A stretch of DNA of 64,000 nucleotides, taken from Aquila chrysaetos chrysaetos. Taxonomy: Eukaryota > Chordata > Aves > Accipitriformes > Accipitridae. How positions within the stretch are numbered: the stretch's first letter is position 1; the number at the start of each line of letters is the position of its first letter. The stretch covers positions 2,976,001 to 3,040,000 of the forward strand of contig NC_044019.1 of assembly GCF_900496995.4 (NCBI RefSeq), read 5' to 3'. Positions 11,501-60,620 of the stretch are shown here, in pieces. Made by a program: the position numbers and the translations under genes. A model generated the notes under the pieces. That model was not told where the DNA came from. It saw only the letters and a list, made by a program, of their open reading frames with translations, and made no database searches.

Positions 11501-12750
11501 TGATCCTCTCATGATTTTATAGATTTCCATTTACATCACCTGCTTAACTTTTTTTCCTAGCTCAGACATCTCTCACTCTACAGACATTTGTACAAAGCTG
11601 TGCCAGACTTTGATCATTTCTCTTTTCCCTCCCTGAAGCATTACAGGTTCCTGTATACACACTTTGAAATGAGTGACCCCGGGGCTGCATACAGTATTCA
11701 GTGTGCAGGTGTGCACTATTAATTAATGGTAAGAGCTGTGAGAAGCTGCGTGCTAGGGTTGTGTTGTCTAACCCTGACAGGGGAACGATGAGGAAAAAGA
11801 TGCTCTAATGGTCCTCTGGGCTGCCTTTGGAACCGGTTCTGCTAATACAGTCTTTAGACTTTGATGTAAAAGCAAGATAAATTACATGAAATTTGCACGT
11901 GACACTGATCAGAGGATGACTACGGACTGGCAATGTGCCATGGCTGGAAAAGGCTGGTCAGTTGTAGGTACATCAGATTGAAATGTTTTCAGTTGATAAT
12001 TAACACCATTGCCCAGTGGACTGAAAAGATTCATGCGAAATACTGTGTAAATTCCAATTGCTTTCATGTTCAAGAATGATTAATTTAAACTGGTCAGGTA
12101 CAGAGTGGAGTCATACGCAAGCAGAACGGGTCTCATGAAAGATTTTAAAAGTGTGGCCTGCATTTGAAAGGAGATGGAATCTACAAAGCTATGGATGTTT
12201 ATTAAAAAGGGGGAATTAAGCCAGTGAAAAATACTGTTGCAATATAAATGGATATAAATTGAATATGAATAAATGATATACTGGGTGAATGTTTCTAACA
12301 ATCAGAGGAAAGAGTCTTTAGATGTCTTTCCCATTTTGCTATAGTGGGGAAAGGAACATGAATTGTTTCAAGATGGAATGTCTTAAGTTTATGGAAGGGA
12401 AGGCTAAAAAGGATACAACGGATACAGTTAAGGCAGAATGGCTCCCACGGGAAAACAAGTATTTATGAGAAATATCTGGGGTGTCAAGAGCACAGAAAAG
12501 ACCCTGGTGGCAAGAAGAGGAAGGAGAAAGACATCAAACTTCGAGTGAGAGAAGGTGAGAGGTTCAGGTACTAGGATTTCAGATGTGCTTTTTTCAGAAG
12601 ATAACAGACATGAACAGGAAAAAATAAAAAAATAAAAGAAGACGTTACATCTCCTTTTGAGGAAGCTGCAGGCGCGTTAAAGAAGGATTTGGGTCATCAA
12701 GGCCCCTGCTATACATAAAGGTGTGAGAAGGAAGCATCTAGGGCATCGCA
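8561..12750. other. Intergenic DNA between ZBTB8B and ZBTB8A
   Basis: AT-rich sequence with only short, unsupported reading frames on both strands. The only recognisable element is an old CR1-like remnant near 11.5-11.73 kb. I see no splice-flanked exon, RNA gene or CpG island here. Confidence 0.6.
11490..11735 (-). mobile_element. Ancient CR1-type LINE remnant
   Basis: On the plus strand the segment runs from a CCTCTCATGATTTTATAGA-like stretch to CGGGGCTGCATACAGTATTC. Both resemble the antisense of the internal 3' part of old amniote CR1 LINEs (the region usually reading ACTGCACACAGTATTC). It is highly decayed and has no open frame. The match is from memory of the repeat, so the exact ends are uncertain. 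Confidence 0.45.
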
Positions 12751-12753
12751 TCC

Positions 12754-13781
12754 CCTCCCGGACAGCATGTGGGTGTGGGAAGAGGCGAGCAGCCCCGACT
12801 GCAGGGCGAGCAGGCAGAGGAAAGCCGCTGGGCTGCGCCTGCAATCGGTGCGTTGCCCCTTTAATTGTGTCCCCAGCCCTCGGGCGTCTCTGTCCAACGC
12901 CCACGTCAGCAAATACCTTTTGTTTCTCTCACGTTCGGGCTTCCAGGGCTCGGGGCTGCGGGACCAGCGCGTCGCCTTCAGCCACCGCGAGCCCCGACGC
13001 GGGGCCGGGGACCCCCGCATCCACCGCCCGCTCCCTTCGGCTCAGCGGCGGCCGCCCGCAGGACCCAGCCCGGTGAGTGGCGGCTCCAGCACGCCGGCAG
13101 GCCAGACAGGGCGTTGGGATCTGGGGGGCGGAAACGGCCCCGGAGCGAGCCTTGCTGCGAGGGGCAGCGAGGGACGGCCCCGGGCTCCGCGCTCTCCGAG
13201 GGCGCCGGTGTCCGTGTGCCGCGACGGCCCGCGGGCAGCTGCCCCCGGGAGCCGATGGTTACCGGGGCTGCACGGCGTCCTAGGCGGGCGCCATTTGCAG
13301 CCCCGGGCGCGGCTGCGAGGAGCCAGGCGCGGCAACAAAGGGCTGCGCGGGAGCAGGAGCGGGCGGCGGGTGCGCGGCGAGAGGGGCCGCGCAAGGGGGC
13401 GGCCGGGGCGCTGCCCCCCGCGGGGAGGCCGCGGGCAGCTGCGGCGGGAGCGGCCCCGGCCCGGGCCACGCCGGGCGCCCGGCACCGGGCGGCGGCCGCG
13501 GGAGCGTGGCGGGCAGCTCTCGCGGAGCGGCAGCCGGGGCTCCGCTAAGGCGGGCGGCTCCGGGCTGCGCGCCCGGTCCGGCCCGGCGGAGGGGAGCGCG
13601 CAGCCGCCCGGAGCGCTGGCGGGCGCCGGCGCTGCGGTCCCCGCGGCGGGAGCGGGAGCGGGGGCGGCCGCGGCAGCCCGCGAAGCCGGGAGGCGCCTCC
13701 GCGCTTTGGCGGGCGGGTCCGGCGCCGTCGGGCGTCCCGGGCTCCCGATGGCCGAGCCACCAATTCGGCCGGGCGTTGCGG
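12754..13781 (+). promoter_or_regulatory. ZBTB8A: ZBTB8A CpG-island promoter and noncoding first exon (copy A)
   Basis: A dense CpG island lies directly upstream of the ZBTB8A coding exon. It holds a CRE-like CCACGTCA at 12901-12908. There are two good splice donors: GTGAGT after 13072, and GTGAGT after 13781, which also exists unchanged in the second copy. The likely noncoding exon ends at 13781 and splices to the exon that starts at 14264. Blocks 12754-12987 and 13174-13815 look identical to 22949-23182 and 23329-23970 of the paralogous promoter. Between them lie a 21-bp net length difference and a diverged patch at 13084-13173. The transcription start is not determined. Confidence 0.75.
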
Positions 13782-14291
13782 GTGAGTGACGGCGGCCTCC
13801 GCCAATGCCGCGGGATTGAGGCCGCCGGGTCTCGGCCGCCGGGTCCCATTTCTGGTCGCTTCGGCGGCGAGGCTTGGAGCCCGGCGGGAGCCGGGGCGAT
13901 GCGGTAACGTCGGCTCAGGGCGCGGACACGGTCCTCCACCGCAGCTGCTGGAGCGCTCCTCGTCTCGCTGGAGAGCGTCTGAAGGGTGTGCAGCTGCCTT
14001 CTGTGTCCTGCATCCTTCGGAAGGAGATGCTCTAGGTGTAGCACGCGCGTCTCTGCCAGATAACATGTACTGATTTGGCTTTTTCATCGCTCTTTAATTC
14101 TTGGAAAAAGAATGTATGGTTGCGCATATTGTAATTTAAATGTATTTATAGATTTAAATACATAAGATTATTTGTAAAGATGTCTGTAAAATTGGGTCTG
14201 ACATCTTTGGCTGCGTTGCACGACGCTGAAGTCGAGACTCAGGTTATTTTCTTTATCTTTTAGAGCGACGCTTCATTTCATCTTTTCTGGA

Positions 14292-16617
14292 ATGGAGATT
14301 TCTTCTCACCAGTTTCACCTCTTGCAGCAACTAAATGAGCAGCGCAGGCAAGACTTATTCTGTGACTGCAATATCCTGGTGGAGGGCAAGGTCTTTAAAG
14401 CACATCGCAATGTGCTGTTTGCCAGCAGCGGCTATTTCAAAATGCTCCTTTCGCAGAGCTCGAAGGAGGCGAGTCAGCCGACGACAGCTACTTTCCAGGC
14501 ATTTTCTCCTGACACATTTACAGTTATTCTAGATTTTGTGTATTCGGGCAAACTGTCTCTCACTGGTCAGAATGTCATCGAAGTCATGTCAGCTGCTAGC
14601 TATCTGCAGATGACCGATGTTATCAGTGTGTGTAAAACGTTCATTAAGTCATCGCTGGACATCAGTGAGAAGGAGAAGGATCGCTACTTCAGTCTGTCAG
14701 ACAAAGATGTAAATTCAAATGGCGTGGACCGATCCTGCTTGTACAGCGCAGGCTGGAGGGGAGAAAGCAGCCCCCCGCATTCGCACTTAAGTCCAGACCA
14801 AGGGACATGTATGATGGGTGGAAACGCTTGGAGCAATTTCAGCTACTATCCGACTTCTCAAAGAAATGCCCAGCAGCAGCTGTCCAAACACGAGCAACGG
14901 CAGGATTCCATAAAGAAATCCCGGCACCTGGGACTGCAGCAACCTTCTGACATTCCTCACTATAAATCAAGCAAACTGGAGGACAGGGCTGCCGAGCCCG
15001 CTGGCCATATTGCTCAGTCTGAGGAGCAAGTTCAGATTGAAACAGAAGTTGAATCCCCTCACGTGGGATACCAGTACGGCCAAGGGTCTGACGTGATGCC
15101 GAGGAGCTTGGCTGTGTCACAGCAGGAGCATGAATCACCCCGTTCTTCTAGTAAATCGAAGTCTTCAAAAGCAGATGAGCAGTACGCGAGCATGCCCTCG
15201 ATTCTAGGTGTCATGGGAAGCTGGGCTGAAGGTAAGAATTAGTTTTAATGCTGTAGGTGCACAGTCATCTGTGAATCGTCTGTTCTGTCCATGAGAAAAC
15301 CTACTTTACTGAATGGGTGTACAATTTCCAAAAAGACATCTGTATTGTCCAGAATGTAAGTTTGGAAAGTTTAACTCTTATTTTTCAGTAATTGTGAATG
15401 ATTGAAGTACCCGGTTTATTAAAACTAGCCCATCAAAATACATGATCTTTAGCATCATCTTGCAAATTTGTCATCTTTTTGGATATTTTTAAGCTCATTT
15501 TAATATAGCTAACGGTCCGCTCCTTTTTGTTTGTTGCACTCCTGTGTATTTTACAAGAAAACACAAGATCTTTGTGCTTGAAAAGACCTACGGTAATATT
15601 TTTTTAATAAAAGTGATTTGCTATTCTGCTCATAGAATGCCTTTTCCTAGAGCATTATGTGACTAGACATGTTATGACTTAATTTTTTTAATCGCATTAT
15701 TTTCTAACAGATGATCTGCCCAGGATGAGGTTCAAGTGCCCATTCTGCACTCATGTGGTGAAAAGAAAAGCAGACCTAAAGCGTCACCTTCGCTGTCATA
15801 CAGGAGAGCGCCCTTACCCTTGTGAGGCATGTGGGAAAAGATTTAGCAGGCTAGATCACCTAAGTAGCCATTTTCGAACAGTATGTATTTTTAGTAACTG
15901 CATGATTTGTTTAATGTGTAAATCTGTCTCAGTACAGTTAAACACAGTACAAGTGTATCTGGTTGATATATTGACTCCTGTAAAGAAGAGGTAATAGAAA
16001 ATGAATTTGGTTTTGTTGTCAGTTTGAAACATAATTTGTATGAAAGGGGATGAATTTCTGTGTTAACTGATGGCTCACAAAGGTACTGCTCTGTGCAAGT
16101 CCTGTAACAGAGCTTAAGTGGGTAGTTACAGCACCTGCGATGGTTTAATTTTTAACTTTGGATGACTGTCTCTCAAAATGAGTTAACACTACCATTTGAC
16201 GCTACTCCAGCCCTACTTTTTGTCATCTTAAAAAATGCTTCTTTGTGGACATGTTATCAAATTTATTCCTTTCAATTTTCCCAGATTCATCAGGCTTGTA
16301 AGCCTATCTGCAGAAAGTGTAAACGCCATGTGACTGAGCTAACAGGACAAGTGGTCCAAGAGGGGACACGACGTTACAGACTCTGTAATGAGTGTTTGGC
16401 CGAAGCTGGCATAGACAGTATTCGCATTGATTTGGAGGCTGAAGCACCCCTTGAATTTCCACAAGATGGGGATAAGGATTCCAGGTGGCACTATGGGGAA
16501 GACAACAGATCCGATGTGGAGATTGTGGAGGATGGGTCAACCGACTTGGTCATTCAGCAAGTTGATGACAGTGAGGATGAAGTAGATGAAAAGGAAGTGA
16601 AACCAAATATTAGGTAG
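14292..16617 (+). CDS. ZBTB8A: ZBTB8A, BTB and zinc-finger protein
   Basis: Predicted nuclear BTB-zinc-finger transcription regulator of 480 aa. Coding exons are 14292-15231, 15711-15880 and 16285-16617. The first coding exon begins after an acceptor at 14263, leaving a 28-nt leader before the ATG. The BTB domain is at about residues 15-115 ([17 protein letters not shown] start, [26 protein letters not shown]). A long polar linker follows. Two C2H2 fingers lie at about 320-371, with the last His of finger 2 supplied by the final exon. The last exon adds a CX2C-X21-CX2C element (ICRKC...LCNEC) and an acidic tail ending KPNIR. It agrees residue for residue over long stretches with human ZBTB8A as I remember it. 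The linker ends with a segment ([13 protein letters not shown]) that I do not recall in the 441-aa human form. Confidence 0.93.
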
Positions 16618-16942
16618 TTGCAAGAGAAGAATTAGGAATTCTGTGTAAGAGGGAGAATGTACTGTCTTGACCACAAACTCTCCACCAGCCTGTTGTTAAT
16701 CGTGCAGAGATGTACTGGTTTCTCTTGAACAGGTCCAGACTTGCATGTATTTATGGACTTGCCATTGAGTCCACCCTGAGTTTTCTTATCAGAATACCCA
16801 TGCTTCGCTTCATTAGAAAGAATCCACCCTTAAATGAAATAATGGATGAACAAGGAAACTGAAGTACTACATGGATAACTTTTTATAGTAGACAATGGGT
16901 AACTTCTCAAAACCTCTTTCAAGGGAGTGAGGTCTAAATACT

Positions 16943-16970
<28 letters not shown>
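16943..16970. repeat. Homopolymer A28
   Basis: Uninterrupted run of 28 A directly after the ZBTB8A stop-proximal UTR. No retrotransposon body is recognisable upstream of it. Confidence 0.95.
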
Positions 16971-16973
<3 letters not shown>

Positions 16974-17439
16974 CACAGTACTGTAAATTGCCCACTTTTT
17001 AAACTTGTAGAGATGTGGGTTTTATATGTAATATCATCTGGCGATAAACAAAGTATAAATACCCCACACACCAGAATATAGAGAAAACCTCTCTTCAGAA
17101 ATGAAGATAATCTTCCAGGAAATTTCATGAAGTCTTCATATTATGATAAGGAAAAAAGGCAGCTAATTAAGAAAAAGCATATAAAAATGTTTTAGAACAT
17201 TCGTCTGGAAAAGCACTTTCTTGTAAAATTTATTAGAATAAGGAGAATCTTTAGCAGATCATTCATTCAAGACATATTTCTTTACAAGAAAATAAACACA
17301 TGAATGCTAGTCCTAGTCAGCACATCAGAGATAAAATTATTACAATTATGGATCATTAATTGATGCAAGTAGATGTTTTATTGATTCTGAAAATTGGGAA
17401 CTTGAACTGGGGTATATTTTAATAAGCACTAGTAAAATA

Positions 17440-17442
<3 letters not shown>

Positions 17443-17480
<38 letters not shown>
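17443..17480. repeat. Homopolymer T38
   Basis: Uninterrupted run of 38 T, complementary to the A28 run about 470 bp upstream. It is probably length-variable between individuals. Confidence 0.95.
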
Positions 17481-17484
<4 letters not shown>

Positions 17485-19921
17485 CTCTCAAAAGTGCTAG
17501 ACTGACATGACTGGTAGCCCTGCATCCACAGCATTGCCAATGGTAGTGTCAGCTTCTCCATGCCAATGTGAAGGAAACAACCCTTATGAGGTTACTTTAG
17601 CTGTTGTTTTCTCTCTTTGTCCCGTTTTATTTGCCAATAACAGTGGCAGAACAATTTGTACAGTATATGTACTATATAATTAGAAATGGAACTGATGAGA
17701 TTTTACATCTGAAACCATTGACTGCTCTTGTTTGTATTGACCTGTACTCAGTTTAAACTGATTAATTTTAAGATGGAGTCATTATCAATTTATATATTCC
17801 CAAAGTCATTCGGTCACCAGGAGAACACACTTTAACCTTTTTCAGTCTGTACTATATGCTGATGAGAACAAGATGTACGGGAAGTTCTAGACATCTTCTT
17901 TGTGTAATTTTACCTACAATTAGACTACAAGAGATGAGATGACTAATGGTGAAGAAAGTTTACTTCTATAACAAAATAAGCCAATTTTTGTTTTGTTACT
18001 TAGTGAGTTTATCTTAACCAGCACTGTAAACAGGAGAGAAGTATGCTCCTGGGGTGCTTTTACTCTGCGTTTCCTTGGACAGACCTGAGTATTAATACAG
18101 TCTTCATCCCGTGATCATTAAACTCAATGGGTAAAGGCTTAGAAAACTTTTTTTTTTTTATTATTATTTTTTACAACTTTGTAAGCATGTTTGGCTGAAA
18201 CCCGGGATTAATTACAGAACAATCCCATATATATACACTATATAATCTCTTTCCCAGGGACAGCTAAAAAGTCACTATTTTTATTTGTGTAAAAACTATA
18301 TAGCCTTATTAGTATCATCATTACCAGAGAGTGCAGCATTTTCATTCCAGGCTGCAGATGGCCAGCCTACAGGTCTCTTAAATGACAGCTCGTGCACTTC
18401 CTTCTAAGTTCACAGTGTAAGCATTAGGAGCCCTTCCCCTCAAACGTGCCAGGCTATCGAGAAGCAGCCTGCTTGTATGTTCTAAGGAGACAAGAAGTGG
18501 TATTTTGTTGTTCCTACAAAAATTATCATCCATTGGCTTGGACTTGGGGAAGTGGGTTGAAGGGGGGAACTTACAAAACTTTCTGATGACCCAGATGAAA
18601 ACATCTTTTCCAAACAAGACTTACACTTGCCTCAATTTTATGTTATGCTTTGGTCAGCAGTCCAGAAAATGGACTTGAAGTGAAAACAGTTGGTTATTTT
18701 CTTGAACCTTATTACTCCTAAAATGCATATTATTAAATGGCTGAAATATTCCTGAGCAACCTTAACTAAATCAAATATAGAACAAAGAAATATATAAAAG
18801 AATATGGAATGACTTCAATCAAATTTCAAGAGAAAATGCTTGCTGAAATCAAATTTAATAGATTTTTCCGTTTCCCTTTACATTAAACACTATGCGCAAT
18901 AAATTCTAGGTATTGGTGCCTGCTCTCCCAGAATACAAAGTGGCTGGGATTAGTCTGTGTGTGTGTTTGGGGATGGATTAAGGGGAGGGGAAAATAAAGT
19001 GTCACTCTAGGTCTAAAACCTTAACTGCAACTGTAAAGGTGAGACTACTAAGTGTTTCTGTATACTTGGGGGCGTTTTTAGAAGAAAAGGGATTTTTGGA
19101 TCAATACTCAATCTAATTAGATACCATAAATCTAAGAATACTGAGGACCAGATGCTTCAGAAAAAGATGTGAGGTGGCTATAAATGGGCAAATGGAACAA
19201 TCCATCCATATGAAGACGTTTACTTTTTAAATATAGGCAGATTAATTGTTGATTTGCCTGGCAAATAAGGGTTTTTACTGCTTTTATATTTTATTGTTAG
19301 TAGCATAACTAGATATCTGTAGTAATTTTTAAGGTATCTTATTAAGCTTGGAGTTTTAGCTCAAGACTGCGATTCCCACAGGTCAATTATGTTCTGTATT
19401 TTAAAAAGGTTACCATTTTTACATTTGTTGCCTTAATTTCCGTTGTTGTTCCCTTATTTTTGTATTGCAAGACAAGATAAATGTTAAGTGCCTTCTATTT
19501 TCTACGTCTTCATTTTACATAGCCAGTCATATATTTTGCTTGTTTTTCTCTAAATGAAAGTAATCCTATTTGTTTTCTTTTCATCTCCTTGCATTGCCTC
19601 TGATGACTGTCGTCTTCATATTTGTTATGATCACGTACCACTCATTAGCAGAAGTAACATTCTCTTTCTTCTCAAAGAAGAAAGTAAAGACCATATAGGG
19701 TTGTTCCCACAGAATTTCATTTACCTGGCAGTAACTGATTTGAATGTGTTGCTTTTAGAACAAGTCGGGTCACAAGTAGGACACCTGATTTTATCTTTAA
19801 ATGCTAGAGGATGCTGCATAGAACTGTATTGACTTCTGCGAATAGCAATCCATTCAGATTCTGTTTCTGTCCTGCCTCTGTACATCCAAATCACAGTTTG
19901 AGAGGTTTAAATTGTAGTGCA

Positions 19922-20093
19922 GCATTGGAATGGGCTGTGCAGAAGGTTATCCTTGAAGGTGTTCAAGACTTGGCTAGACAAAGCCATGGCTGATCTGATC
20001 GTGATCTGATCTTGATGCTGGCCGTCTTCCTGTGGGAGATGGGACTAGAGACATTCACAGCTCCCCTATGACCAACAGTTCTGCGATTCCTCT
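19922..20093 (+). mobile_element. CR1 LINE 3' fragment, decayed
   Basis: Contains the CR1 3'-part signature TGGAATGGGCTGTGCAGAAG, then GGTGTTCAAGACTTGGCTAG and an ending resembling TTCTGCGATTCC. These correspond to the end of the CR1 reading frame and the terminal repeat. It is 5'-truncated, as is typical for the family. Confidence 0.75.
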
Positions 20094-20384
20094 CAAATTG
20101 GTTTTTGCCTTTTTTTTTTAAATTTTTTTCCTTGCATTTCCTTCATCTTATTCATGTTGCTTTGAATGCTCTTAAATACTACTTCTTAATGCATGTTTTG
20201 ATTATTCACTGGTTTTCAGTACATCATTCTCTTGTCATTTGCTTTTCCATTCCCATTTCATCTAACATTGGAGGGATGTCTACTTCAAGAGACATTCCTC
20301 TTGTATATCTCTACTTTCTGTGCAATCCTAGTGTCTTTGTCCTTTTCTCTCCTCTATCTGTCCTTTGTCACTGAAAGCCTGCCT

Positions 20385-20493
20385 CTTAGGGACATGCTTT
20401 AGTGGTGGACTTGGCAGCACTAGGTTAACCGTTGGACTGTATGATCTTAAAGGTCTTTTCCAACCTAAACAATTCTGTGATTCTATGATTCTT
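20385..20493 (+). mobile_element. CR1 LINE 3' end
   Basis: Begins in GGACATGCTTTAGTGGTGG and passes through GTTGGACTGTATGATCTTAA and GGTCTTTTCCAACCTAAAC. It ends in the diagnostic 8-mer repeats TTCTGTGATTCTATGATTC. This is a 5'-truncated avian CR1 copy, less decayed than the fragment about 300 bp upstream. Confidence 0.92.
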
Positions 20494-21371
20494 TTTGCTT
20501 GGCTTGTGTTTATCGTGTTCACAAAACCACAGTCAAGAGTGAAGACAGATTCATCATCTTCTGTTTAGTGTCTCACCTTTAACTATCCTTATTTTCTGAC
20601 AACTATCTTGCCGTCCTTTCAAAGGCTGAAACACTGAATTAAAAAACATTTCTCTTTCTCCCTTTTCAGGTATTTCTTACAGAATTCTACCTGCCACATA
20701 AACCTATGACTTGTGTGATACTTGATTAGTTTTTCTCCTTCACATCATATCCCATTTTTTTTGTTTTCCATTAAATTATCTAAACTTCTGTATTTACTAT
20801 CCCCCAAAAGTGACACTTATCTTTATCTTAATGGTTCAACTGTTGGTTTTGTTGGTTGTTTTTCTCTTTTCCCCAAATTAATAAAAAAAAAAGCAGACCC
20901 TAAAAAACAACTTCATAATGAATCTCCCTTTCCAACTTTTTGATATATATTCTATTCCAATTCTGAATAACTGAGATGAAAAAAAAATTACAAAAATATT
21001 TAGTGTGAGTTTTGAAAATACCTGTAAACCCACAGATCTAGTGGAGGACTGACACTTGACTGCTACATGTATCATCCTTCCTTTTCATGGCTCTTCAGAA
21101 GAACATTCCATCCTCCAGTATTTTGGGATCCCTCCCAGTTTTTCAGTGATAACTTAGAAAAAAAAAACCGCAACTCTGTTGTATATAAAATTATGGAATG
21201 TACTACATTTCTACCCTGAAGCATCTGGTCACTGTCAGAGGTTATCCCATTACCTAGCAATGCCAATGTCTACCTTTCTTATATTTTGGTCTCTTAGTCT
21301 GCAGAAATACTTGGCTTTGAACTTCAGATAGCCTACACAGGGGCTAACAGCACTATCTTCAGCCCCATTTA

Positions 21372-21409
21372 TTATTTATATGGACCTTGATTATTTATAT
21401 GGTCCTTGA
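21372..21409. repeat. 19-bp tandem duplication
   Basis: Two units of TTATTTATATGGACCTTGA (21372-21390 and 21391-21409) differing at one position. This is a small local duplication with no known function. Confidence 0.85.
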
Positions 21410-22948
21410 TGGACCAAGCTGAAAAATGCCTGACCTGCCATCTGGCTACAGCTGAGTCAATGGCTGTGCCCGGATCCCAGGATCCCCCTCTGACTATCGT
21501 TAGCATCTGTCAGCATAACAACAATGCTATATAGTTGAGTATCTATCTAAAACCTTAACTGCTGAGGGCTAGCAGAGTTGAGGTGTGCGTTAAGTGAGGA
21601 TTACAGCTAAACTAAACTTGTTTAGTTGAATTTATCCTAAAAAAGGCATTTAAAAATTATATTTTAATTGAAGCCTTGAGGCTAAAGATAGCAGCAGTCA
21701 GACTGGAATAAGCACATGCGTTTAGGGTTTATTTAATAAGATTACAAATTCATAAGGAACTACTTCAGTGGACTGCTGAGGCCAGTATCTATGTGATCTG
21801 CTGAAGGTGGCACTGGGGACTTCTAACCCTTTGCAAGGTAGAGAAATGTAAATTATAATCCAGAAAGAGTCCAGATAGTTAATTCTGTATTCCTTTTATT
21901 GTTTCTACATGAATAAGTACAGCGGAATTGTAAGAGTAGTTCAATATTCTAGTACAGGCATTTGAACGCTTGCTTCTTGATTTTTCTGGAACATCTCAGG
22001 AAAAGTCAGAAGTCAATTACAAGGTTACTATTAGTTGGAAGGCAACATGTATGAGAATGAAATAGCAGAAAATTTCTCTAATTCTGGCCAAAAGGTTGAG
22101 TTTTGAAGAAAAGGATCTTATAATCATCCAGTCCCTGCCTCCAGACTTTCAGTGTACTTTTCCCATTAGGTATAAATCTGTACCAACAGTCTGTATGTCT
22201 GTTGAGTGGTGGGTATAATTTGATAAGCTACTAAGAAAAGCTTATAATACCATTTAGTTAAATATTTTCTATACTGTTTAACTTAAAAAACCTCCCACAC
22301 TGGAGTAGCATAACCTTTCATCATATTTAACTCTTGAAATGCGGAGAGGCATCTTATTTGGTGCATCAAGAATTTTAAACATAGCAACACAGAACAAAAA
22401 ATCTTGTAAGGAAAAACTGGGAGGAGTGGCAGGAAAAAGATTTCCGTATCTTGGTTCACCTGTTGTACTAAATTAAACACTAAAGAAGTTCTCTGCCACA
22501 CTCTGACCTGACACTTTTTACTGTGCAAATGGGAACTGTTCTTTGACCGCGTTCTAACTGAGCCTGCTTTGAGGAGGGGACTATACCTGAGGACCTGCAG
22601 AGGTTCCTTCTCAAAATTATTCAATGGTCTCGAGGAACAAGTTTGAAAGTGTCTTGTCTTCTCACGGGCATCCTGATTTGATTTTCTTTTTTCACAAAGA
22701 AGTGAAAAAAAAGGACAATCTGTCATATTGCACTCCCACTTGCAGTACTTTGGTTTAGGATTATCTCCATTGTCTGAATACAAAACTTGCCTGTTATGGA
22801 AGTGCTGCTGTATTGAGTAATAGCATATATCCTACGCCACAGAACTACAGGTATTTCCAACATTCAGGTGGCGCCTTCCTTCTACATACAAAGCTATCCA
22901 GACGGGCCTTTAACAATAGCCATGCATTGTCTGCGGTAAGGCAGTGAG

Positions 22949-23936
22949 CCTCCCGGACAGCATGTGGGTGTGGGAAGAGGCGAGCAGCCCCGACTGCAGG
23001 GCGAGCAGGCAGAGGAAAGCCGCTGGGCTGCGCCTGCAATCGGTGCGTTGCCCCTTTAATTGTGTCCCCAGCCCTCGGGCGTCTCTGTCCAACGCCCACG
23101 TCAGCAAATACCTTTTGTTTCTCTCACGTTCGGGCTTCCAGGGCTCGGGGCTGCGGGACCAGCGCGTCGCCTTCAGCCACCGGGGACCCCGCATCCACCG
23201 CCCGCTCCCTTCGGCTCAGCGGCGGCCGCCCGCAGGACCCAGCCCGGCGAGTGGCGGTTCTGCTGTACACCGATAGGTCGGACCGGGCGTCGGGGCTGAA
23301 GACGGGTAGGAGCGGGCTGCTGCGAGGTACGGCCCCGGGCTCCGCGCTCTCCGAGGGCGCCGGTGTCCGTGTGCCGCGACGGCCCGCGGGCAGCTGCCCC
23401 CGGGAGCCGATGGTTACCGGGGCTGCACGGCGTCCTAGGCGGGCGCCATTTGCAGCCCCGGGCGCGGCTGCGAGGAGCCAGGCGCGGCAACAAAGGGCTG
23501 CGCGGGAGCAGGAGCGGGCGGCGGGTGCGCGGCGAGAGGGGCCGCGCAAGGGGGCGGCCGGGGCGCTGCCCCCCGCGGGGAGGCCGCGGGCAGCTGCGGC
23601 GGGAGCGGCCCCGGCCCGGGCCACGCCGGGCGCCCGGCACCGGGCGGCGGCCGCGGGAGCGTGGCGGGCAGCTCTCGCGGAGCGGCAGCCGGGGCTCCGC
23701 TAAGGCGGGCGGCTCCGGGCTGCGCGCCCGGTCCGGCCCGGCGGAGGGGAGCGCGCAGCCGCCCGGAGCGCTGGCGGGCGCCGGCGCTGCGGTCCCCGCG
23801 GCGGGAGCGGGAGCGGGGGCGGCCGCGGCAGCCCGCGAAGCCGGGAGGCGCCTCCGCGCTTTGGCGGGCGGGTCCGGCGCCGTCGGGCGTCCCGGGCTCC
23901 CGATGGCCGAGCCACCAATTCGGCCGGGCGTTGCGG
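22949..23936 (+). promoter_or_regulatory. CpG-island promoter and noncoding first exon of the second ZBTB8A-like gene (copy B)
   Basis: This island is nearly a copy of 12754-13781, about 10.2 kb upstream. 22949-23182 and 23329-23970 appear identical to copy A. A 21-bp net deletion lies just after 23182, and 23258-23328 has unrelated sequence where copy A has 13084-13173. The CRE-like CCACGTCA recurs at 23096-23103. The donor GTGAGT after 23936 is preserved. The upstream donor of copy A is changed to GC here (23247-23248). The noncoding exon should splice to the acceptor at 24394. Flanking sequence on both sides is not shared with copy A. Confidence 0.75.
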
Positions 23937-24424
23937 GTGAGTGACGGCGGCCTCCGCCAATGCCGCGGGAGGGCTGAGGCCGCCGGGGCTCGGCCGCCGC
24001 CTTCATGCGCGGCCCTGCGGAGCTCCGGCGGGGGCTCTGTCCGCGGCGGACGGGTTGGAGGCGCGGGCTCTCCCGTCGGGCGCGGCAGTCCCCAGGGCAG
24101 AAGGGCCGAGTCCTTGTAAGTTTGCGAGCCGTTCACGTCTTCGTCGGTGTAATCGTAATTCTTTTAGGATATGCAGTAACCCTGCTGAGGCGTCTTTTCA
24201 CCTCTTCTAGAGTTGTCAAGTTTCTTCTCTCATGTTATTATGCGGGGTAGGGGCTGCAGGGAGTTTGGAGATATACTGGGAACGTGATACCATGTACGAT
24301 GTTCATGTTTTTAAAAACAGAACTCATCCCTTTAAAATAGGATTCAGCAACCTTGGTTCAGACTGTCATGGTTATACTTGTTTTTTTACTTTAGAGCAAG
24401 CCTTCCTCTTATTCCTTGACTGGA

Positions 24425-27083
24425 ATGGAGATTTCTTCCCACCAGTTTCACCTCCTAGAGCAGCTAAACGAACAACGGAAGCAAGACTTGTTCTGTGACT
24501 GCAATATCCTGGTGGAGGGCAAGGTCTTTAAGGCACATCGCAATGTGCTGTTTGCCAGCAGCGGCTATTTCAAAATGCTCCTTTCGCAGAGCTCGAAGGA
24601 GGCGAGTCAGCCAACAATAGCTACTTTTGAGGTCTTCTCCCCAGAGACATTTATGGTTATCCTGGACTTCGTGTATTCAGGCATACTGTCTTTAACCGGT
24701 CAGAATGTCATCGAAGTCATGTCAGCTGCTAGCTATCTGCAGATGACAGATATTCTTAATGTCTGTAAGACATTCATTAAGTCCTCACTCGATATTAATG
24801 AAAAGGAAAAGGATCACTACCTCAGCCTTTCGGCCAAAAGTGCAAGCAGTGAACCTGCCCATCCATCTATTTATCGGTCAAGAAGGAAAGCAAAGAGCAA
24901 CCCCAGGCGTTCCTATTCAATCCCGGATGAAAAGGCTAATACAGTAAATGAAAATTCCTGGAGTAGCTACAGCAGCTACCTGTCCTCACAGGTGATTCTT
25001 CAGCGGGCAGAAACACAGCTATCGAAAAGAGGCAGAAAACAGGGCTCAACGAGAAAGCGCCGAAAGCACCTCGGACTGTCACAGACCCGTGATTTTGTGC
25101 AGTATAAATTGAACAAAGCTGAGAGGGCCAGCGGAGGTTGCAGCGCGTCAGATTCCAGCCACATCTCTCGGGTTAGAGAGGAGGTTGAATTTGATGCCGA
25201 GAATGACGTTGATCATGATGATTACGGATATAATCACGAATCAGAAGTGATACCAAAGAAGTGGTCTGTTGCTCAGCTAGAACAAGAACTTTCAAGAACT
25301 CCTGAGTTCATGGAATTAAAGGCAGAGGAACTGTACACCTCAATGCCCACAATTTTAGGTGTAATGAGTAGTTGGAACGAAGGTAAAAAATACATATGGT
25401 TTTGCAAAGTTTGTCTTTTTTTGGAAGAATTCAGATGATCTTTTGGAGAGAATTTGTATGGCTGCATGAAAACCAAAATGATGCCTAGTGTTGCAGATTA
25501 TTTTCTTGATCTACTCGATTATAGTACCTAACAGAATGAGAAACTTTGAAGCCAGAACCGGGCATGAGAATTAGAATCAGAGAACTTGACCCATGTATTC
25601 TGTAAAGTTAAAACAATACATGCCAGATTACTTGGACCCAAGTGGAATTTAATGAAGCCTCAAGAGCTGTAATTGACTTGGGGACCTGAAGGACTGAGTT
25701 TCTCTTGTAAGGTCCCCAATACCTGGCAGTCATAGAGGCATCCAACCTAAATCCAACCAAAGTCCTTCCCAAGAGAAGGTCCTGTCACTGGCAGGATGCT
25801 GCATTTCCCGTAAGGTCCAAACCAGCCCAATCTTCACGACTGTTTGGCCACACTACATAAAGCATCTAAGCTCTTGACAGCATATGCCTGAGATGGTGGA
25901 ATAAAGTTGACAGGTGTATTCTTACATGCATTCTGATGGAAACTAATGTACCTATATTTTATTATAATCGCATATTTTTAAGACTTTGGGCATCCTAGTA
26001 TATTACACAGAGATTATAAATGTTAAAGCTATGAACTGTTAGCTGATGGAAGGGTCAGACATGATGACTATATGTAATAGCTATGTATTTATGATCATCT
26101 GTATGTCTAAAAAATACCCTGAGTAAGAAAGAATATACTATCAAATGGCCGTTTAACAATTTCAGTAAGAACTACTGGGTTTGGAGGATTGTATTTTGGG
26201 ATTTTTCCTATTTAGTGACAGAGCAGAGGGAAAATGAACTGCTGCTTATTTAAGCTGAGAAATAATCAAACTACTACATAAAGAGAGGCCACTGCTATTT
26301 GACATTTTACCTGTATTTCTTTGTAACAGATGACCTACCTCGGATGCGATTCAAATGCCCCTTCTGTACACACACAGTGAAACGACGCGCAGACCTGAAG
26401 CGACATCTTCGGTGTCACACAGGGGAGCGACCGTACCCGTGCGAAGCGTGTGGGAAAAGGTTCACCCGACTAGAGCATCTACGTAACCACTTCCAAACGG
26501 TACGCCATTTCTGTCGGAGACTCAGCCTAGAAAAAAAACCCACAAGATGTCATTGGTACCAGCTGTTCAGTCATTTCCAGAACTAATACCAGAAAAGCTT
26601 CCTAGCTGCACATCAACTTTAATTATTCATTATTTAAATTGGCAAATTATATTTTAAATTTAATTTTTTAGAATGATTCAGTGAATTTTCTTTTTTTAAA
26701 AAAAATCTGCTTTTGGATGAACACTGACATTTTCAAATTTTAAATCTCTTTAGATACATCAAGCTGGCAAACTGATCTGCAGAAAATGCAAGCGTCACGT
26801 AACTGAACTAACAGGATGTGTTGTTCAGCAAGGAACAAGACGCTACAGACTGTGCCCTAAGTGTCTAGCAGAAGCTAATTTTGATAGCATCCCTGACGAT
26901 TTAGATGCAGAACATTCTCCTGTCTCCTCCACAGGAAACAAACGTTCCAAATGGGCTTTGGAGGAGGAACAGAAATCAGATGAAGAGACAATGGAGGAGG
27001 AACCATATAATTTGGTTGTCCGACACGTTAATGATGATATTCCAGATGAGGTAGATGAAAAGGTGAAACCAAATCTTAGGTAG
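24425..27083 (+). CDS. ZBTB8A-like paralogue, BTB and zinc-finger protein
   Basis: Second BTB-zinc-finger gene, 485 aa. Coding exons are 24425-25382, 26330-26499 and 26754-27083, with exactly the exon plan of ZBTB8A next door. I chose the ATG at 24425 because it aligns with the ZBTB8A start ([11 protein letters not shown]). The BTB domain lies at about residues 15-115. Basic clusters sit at residues 150-164 and 200-215. Two C2H2 fingers are at about 325-376, followed by a CX2C-X21-CX2C element (ICRKC...LCPKC) and an acidic tail ending KPNLR. The linker is very different from ZBTB8A, while parts of the BTB exon are almost identical. It probably corresponds to the zbtb8a.2-type gene known in Xenopus, an assignment made from memory. 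Open frames, intact splice sites and a poly(A) signal argue against a pseudogene. Confidence 0.88.
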
Positions 27084-48251: not shown

Positions 48252-51210
<2,959 letters not shown>

Positions 51211-59975: not shown

Positions 59976-60086
59976 GTGAGGGGCGAGGGGACGGCGGTGG
60001 AGGTCGTGGAGGTGGGCGAGGAGGAGGGGACGGGGTGGGGGGCGAGGAGGTGGGTAAGGAGGGGTCAGGGCAGTGGCTGCGGAGGG

Positions 60087-60620
60087 CTCGGGGCGGTGGT
60101 GGCAGAGGAGGGGTCGCGGCGGTGGCCGAGGAGGAGCGGGAGTGGTGGCCGTGGAGGTGGGCGAGGAGCGGTCACGGTGGAAGCCGTGGAGGGTCGGGGT
60201 GGTGGCCGTGGAGGTGGCTAAAGAGGGGTCTCGGCGGTGGCCAAGGAGGAGTCGGAGTGGTGGCCGTGGAGGTGGCTAAGGAGAGCTAAAGGTGGTGGCC
60301 GTGGAGGTGGGCGAGGAGGGGTCACAGTGGAAGCCGAGGAGGGTTGGGGTGGTGGCTGTGCAGGTGGCTAAAGAGGGGTCTTGGTGGTGGCTGGTGAGGG
60401 GTGGAGGTGGTGGCCGTGGAGGTGGCCAAGGAGGGGTCACGGTGGTGGCCGAAAAGGAGGCGAGGTGGTGGCCGTGGAGGTGGCCGAGGAGGGGTCACAG
60501 TGGTGGCCAAGGAGGGGCGGAGGTGCTGGCCGTGGTGGTGGCCAGGAGGGGTGGAGGCGCTGGCCATGGTGGCAGCAGAAGTGGCTGAAGAGGGGTGAAG
60601 GTGGTGGTGGCCGTGGTGGT
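60087..60620. repeat. G-rich minisatellite, period about 57-58 bp
   Basis: The core GTGGCCGTGGAGGTGG recurs at 60145, 60202, 60260, 60295, 60410 and 60468, with a variant at 60352. Spacing is 57 or 58 bp except for one 35-bp step between 60260 and 60295. Between cores are degenerate AAGGAGGGGTCACGGTGGTG-like segments. The plus strand is almost free of C runs and strongly purine-rich. It lies just after the first NHSL3 exon, in intron 1. Confidence 0.85.

Follow-up and report, generated by a model that had tools for sequence, protein, structure and literature searches.

Probable recent gene conversion across the CpG-island promoters of two ancient tandem ZBTB8A paralogues in Aquila chrysaetos

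How can two neighbouring genes that have diverged along most of their length begin with promoters in which not a single base differs? The question arose in a stretch of 64,000 nucleotides from Aquila chrysaetos chrysaetos (NCBI RefSeq assembly GCF_900496995.4, contig NC_044019.1, positions 2,976,001 to 3,040,000 of the forward strand), here called the window. A first-pass annotation of its letters had noted two identical promoter blocks on a pair of ZBTB8A copies and had proposed repeated gene conversion, confined to the CpG island, with an assembly error as the main alternative. We too find recent interlocus gene conversion between old tandem ZBTB8A paralogues to be the best explanation, at a probability of about 80%, given the age of the duplication, the diverged surroundings of the identical tract and the differing orthologues.

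Both genes lie on the plus strand. Copy 1 has coding exons at 14292-15231, 15711-15880 and 16285-16617 for a BTB and zinc-finger protein of 480 residues, ZBTB8A; copy 2 has them at 24425-25382, 26330-26499 and 26754-27083 for a protein of 485 residues that records call ZBTB8A or ZBTB8A-like. The exon borders of both were predicted from open frames, splice motifs and homology. Pfam matches to a BTB domain and to C2H2 fingers were obtained for both products, and protein searches, whose match lists consist of cluster representatives, gave ZBTB8A as the closest named relatives of both, the best listed matches being Falco proteins (97% for copy 1, 96% for copy 2). Judged from their sequences, the two genes are tandem ZBTB8A-type paralogues. 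The nearest solved relative of their BTB domain is Xenopus ZBTB8A.1 (PDB 8p2n and others), a name whose ".1" suggests further frog copies. The two proteins were 64.6% identical over 475 aligned residues. At fourfold silent sites they differed at 15/48 positions in the BTB part, 17/25 in the linker, 13/20 in the zinc-finger exon and 13/25 in the last exon. Heavy divergence, as first described, was thus seen in intron, linker and zinc-finger sequence, silent sites included, and did not extend evenly to the BTB exon, which is patchy.

Direct comparison of the two copies bore out the promoter identity to the base. Block 1, at 12754-12987 in copy 1 and 22949-23182 in copy 2, matched in 234 of 234 bases, and block 2, at 13174-13815 and 23329-23970, in 642 of 642 with zero indels, all on the plus strand. 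The first covers exon 1a and upstream sequence of the CpG island, the second the core of the island (GC 0.83, 116 CpG) with a putative exon 1b. In 1-kb windows at 13001 and 23001, GC was 0.79-0.80 and CpG observed/expected 1.01-1.02, as for a CpG island. Between the blocks, a 79-bp stretch of copy 1 (13008-13086, plus strand) was 95% identical to 23182-23260 and held a possible splice donor, GT in the first copy and GC in the second; a diverged patch follows at 13087-13173, with its counterpart at 23261-23328 (both plus strand). Here copy 2 has features of its own, namely the loss of about 20 bases, one C fewer in a C run, a T to C change at that possible donor and the diverged patch itself. 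In the gapped alignment of the copies, matches per 50-column window numbered 14-19 over the upstream flank (12601-12750) and 15-25 across intron 1, starting at 13844. Identity is near background 5' of position 12754 and, on the other side, across intron 1 from about 13.84 kb. Diverged homologous sequence therefore flanks the identical tract on its 3' side and separates the blocks; at the 5' end the flanks of the copies stop resembling each other, so that this border may be a limit of homology. Comparing the window with itself, we found gene-pair homology of 93.9% over 1094 columns in the island, 85% in the BTB exon, 76% in the zinc-finger exon and 67% in the last exon, the other matches being tandem repeats and one 74-base match of a zinc-finger exon at 1.2 kb with copy 2. 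At the divergence of the surroundings, 642 identical bases cannot be put down to chance. A search against Rfam returned 0 matches at gathering score. An upstream ATG with a short open frame also lies in block 2 of both copies, at 13748 and 23903, directly ahead of a splice donor.

The identical blocks follow each other in matching order and orientation, about 10.15 kb apart, which is what a recent duplication of the gene, or a recent insertion of a copied promoter in front of an old gene, would leave behind. The age of the genes speaks against both. Protein records place both genes across birds and in a turtle, and introns and silent sites have diverged. In a tree of 31 proteins, built from the region after the BTB domain, copy 2 of 11 birds and copy 2 of the turtle Emydura formed one clade with support 100/100. 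The copy-1 proteins, from birds, gharial, turtles, lizards and two mammals, fell on the other side (fork 97/91, copy-1 group 90/72). On this tree the copies are separate since before the turtle-archosaur split, which took place about 250 My ago or more, and a recent duplication is thereby excluded; the long branch of the copy-2 clade (0.6) makes the deeper rooting less certain. The Mauremys protein P0214, which lay outside both copy groups, may be a third turtle paralogue. By their sequences, both Tinamus proteins are copy 2. With a duplication older than that split and with silent divergence of the coding exons, the paralogues are older than the tract that they share, the argument of the first-pass annotation against recent duplication holds, and recent whole-gene duplication was rejected. 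Insertion of a copied promoter fares no better, since copy-2 islands at the corresponding place in other birds are indicated by the exon-1a peptides of four copy-2 models (Falco, Tyto, Colius, Phalacrocorax). The upstream flank of copy 1 matched a chicken model, which is assigned to copy 1 because its first residues match that flank, and also a turtle model; among the matches listed, the upstream flank of copy 2 matched the copy-2 model of Phalacrocorax. These flank matches imply that both promoters stand in their old places. Duplication or insertion in recent times is thus scarcely credible. The chicken protein P0245 ("spidroin-1-like") corresponds to the translated copy-1 CpG island and seems to be a spurious gene model.

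Could purifying selection have kept both promoters identical since the duplication? Part of block 1 is indeed conserved. A core of 105 bp at 12840-12944 (plus strand; second copy at 23035-23139), found by tblastn of exon-1a peptides, has been kept in both bird copies and in turtles. Among the matches listed, its translation is preserved in the copy-2 models of Tyto, Colius and Rhynochetos and in a model of the turtle Trachemys with a copy-1 body; in Emydura copy 2 it was found, by eye, to be kept with three differences. The reading frame of the core in the chicken and Chrysemys models is one, that in the remaining models another, and the constraint therefore seems to act on DNA rather than on protein. 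The core probably represents a noncoding element of the promoter or 5' UTR under deep conservation. An exact search for 30 of its bases gave 0 hits among viral contigs and 0 among prokaryotic ones, in keeping with bird DNA. Conservation of the core accounts for part of block 1 and for none of block 2.

Outside the core, orthologues differ where the two window copies do not. Exon-1a peptides, taken as the N-terminal residues of protein models from other species, report on block 1, and for five of them we counted the fewest changes that would turn the window DNA into any DNA coding for the peptide. The copy-2 peptides of Falco (72 residues), Tyto (74) and Colius (71) required at least 7, 6 and 11 changes within block 1, the chicken copy-1 peptide (69) at least 9 and that of protein model P0242 (60) at least 7, against 0 changes between the two window copies. 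The counts of 19 for Falco and 25 for Tyto obtained against window copy 2 are inflated by the deletion in that copy and were left unused, block 1 being alike in both. A fit to Falco, Tyto and chicken requires the loss of one base near 12818-12822 that both window copies possess. For block 2 the comparators were chicken, the sole named species, and three further models. Of 206 residue columns, the chicken copy-1 island had 99 identical, 90 mismatched and 17 gapped, a count that is approximate in this low-complexity stretch, yet far from zero. In the tract, then, the window paralogues are closer to each other than to their orthologues, by peptide minimum counts in block 1 and by chicken in block 2. 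Of the comparison with islands of other birds that had been proposed as a check, this covers the part that exon-1a peptides report on, where orthologues differ and window copies match. Since the five peptides require a minimum of 6 to 11 changes in block 1, and chicken mismatches block 2 in 90 columns, selection as the whole explanation is highly improbable; the differences in Falco, Tyto, Colius, chicken and P0242 rule it out for the sequence outside the core.

Two positions in exon 1a bear on the direction of conversion. At 12797-12799 the window copies read GAC, where copy 2 of Falco and Tyto implies GGC and chicken copy 1 and P0242 require no change. At 12809-12811 the window copies read AGC, where Falco and Tyto imply ATC, Colius another change and chicken copy 1 GGC, and P0242 again requires none. 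These readings tilt slightly towards copy 1 as the donor, and conversion probably ran from copy 1 to copy 2.

The proposed confinement of the exchange to the CpG island finds no support and was rejected. In the BTB exon, 14358-14479 differed at one base from 24491-24612 (runs of 41 and 80 bases) and 14565-14614 at none from 24698-24747 (a run of 50 bases), all on the plus strand. The exon had 37 silent differences at 120 informative codons, with longest silent-identical runs of 25 and 14; on permutation, the longest run had P = 0.00085 and the two longest P = 0.00025. A Fisher test contrasted 3/55 silent differences in the patches with 30/59 outside; its borders were picked from the data, and we therefore relied on the run permutation.

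The same part of the protein co-varies within species in other birds. We gathered 24 copy pairs including the window and tested 22 birds, omitting Rhynochetos, whose copy-2 model is labelled low quality, and Emydura; the species are cluster representatives in which both copies were found, and no random sample. Residues 22-63, a range chosen from the window DNA, showed 30 differences between copies of the same species against 43.5 between shuffled ones (0/5000 shuffles). Pairing elsewhere was none in the linker (0.77) and weak in the zinc-finger and last part (0.0156). For nine non-passerines, using all permutations, the result was 204/362880 for residues 22-63, 0.91 for 126-310 and 0.19 for 311 to the end. 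The test was repeated without the window: residues 22-63 then gave 138/40320 for eight non-passerines and 276/362880 with Rhynochetos added, and 0/20000 for 21 birds, for which the zinc-finger and last part gave 942/20000. Among the 13 passerines alone the pairing signal was absent. The weak signal in the last part of the protein means that relatedness adds to the pairing test. Both copies of a species sometimes share a motif, for example KETGQ (Apaloderma), KEATQ (Aegotheles), KETTQ (Chaetura) and KEASQ (the window). Because Aegotheles is a relative of Chaetura, not every shared motif need be an event of its own. In a tree of the BTB domain, poorly resolved with 2/25 inner branches starred, bird copy 2 stayed together and there was no grouping by species. 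In Campylorhamphus, copy 1 (P0204) has ILN, the residues of copy 2, at the site that is VIS in the remaining listed copy-1 proteins; this may reflect an exchange running the opposite way.

These patches also bear on the possibility that the assembly is at fault and that reads or contigs of one GC-rich island were used at both places. Block 2, at 83% GC, is of the kind that is hard to assemble, and zero differences in both blocks are also what a copy error would give. To produce the private features of copy 2, however, two pastes would be needed, each ending in locus-specific sequence, and the BTB exon points to an independent, older exchange in the same gene pair, seen in records of other species as well. 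On both grounds a copy error appears rather unlikely.

Under the preferred reading of interlocus gene conversion, the two tandem ZBTB8A paralogues, already distinct before the turtle-archosaur split, would have exchanged sequence. In the lineage of this bird a recent event, or a close series of events, would have overwritten most of the CpG-island promoter and the first exons of one copy and left a short unconverted patch in the middle of the island; this diverged patch is consistent with either patchy repair or two events. The repeated conversion first proposed was not borne out for the island, where one recent event would fit. Older and smaller conversions would have struck the conserved BTB exon, and the linker, zinc-finger and last exons may have escaped, perhaps because they are too diverged for pairing. 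The conserved promoter element and the slowly changing BTB exon could preserve enough shared sequence for pairing to start.

For the age of the island conversion we used the zebra finch rate of 2.0e-9 per base per year given in the consulted part of PMC12047795. With zero differences over 876 bp, 3/876 divided by twice this rate sets an upper 95% bound of about 0.9 My, and three other rates gave 0.49 to 1.14 My. Less than about 1 My is the best reading; selection on the promoter would loosen the bound. According to the same study, recombination in the zebra finch, where PRDM9 is absent, is enriched at CpG islands, which makes the island a natural starting point, and breaks at CpG islands in birds that lack PRDM9 may have initiated the exchange. 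A block of 642 bp far exceeds the mean non-crossover tract of about 32 bp given there and would call for one long event, several events or a different repair route.

Interlocus conversion of tandem genes is well known; this case is unusual in the age of the pair and in having a promoter as the main target. HMA4 of Arabidopsis halleri, as described in the sections of PMC3749932 drawn on here, is alike in that segments of tandem paralogues are homogenised while the remaining gene parts diverge. In HMA4, however, the coding sequences are homogenised, whereas in the window pair it is the promoter and first exons, with coding sequence mostly diverged, and the window paralogues are far older. The window tract lies in a bird CpG island, like the recombination described for birds without PRDM9 in the portions used of PMC12047795 and PMC5519329; that exchange is between alleles, whereas here it would be between loci. 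A connection with PRDM9-free recombination at bird CpG islands is appealing but unproven. That breaks directed to CpG islands make promoters the favoured site of exchange between tandem paralogues, and so repeatedly homogenise the promoters of ancient tandem duplicates while their bodies diverge, a promoter-centred concerted evolution that as a general habit would keep control shared, is a tentative and rather unlikely extension. A search of literature titles among open-licence papers found no report of this case.

If the conversion is real, a brand-new promoter is common to two genes whose separation predates that of turtles and birds; identical promoters are then no proof of conservation, and old duplicates can have their regulation reset jointly. 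The pair would also enable a direct test of whether CpG-island recombination in birds drives exchange between loci. Short reads from expression, methylation or variant studies could then not be placed uniquely on these islands.

The surroundings of the pair show further features. Near 1.1 kb lies a zinc-finger exon that we take to belong to ZBTB8B, the mammalian neighbour, and an RBBP4-type exon lies downstream of the pair at 38.9 kb. Also downstream, at 49690-51210 on the minus strand, is an intermediate-filament gene (Pfam Filament), by position presumably syncoilin, which contains in-frame repeats at 50505-50812 of 33 and 27 bp, that is, units of 11 and 9 residues. A G-rich minisatellite occupies 59985-60572; its units, about 23, 35 and 58 bp long, lie within longer periods of 115 and 150 bp.
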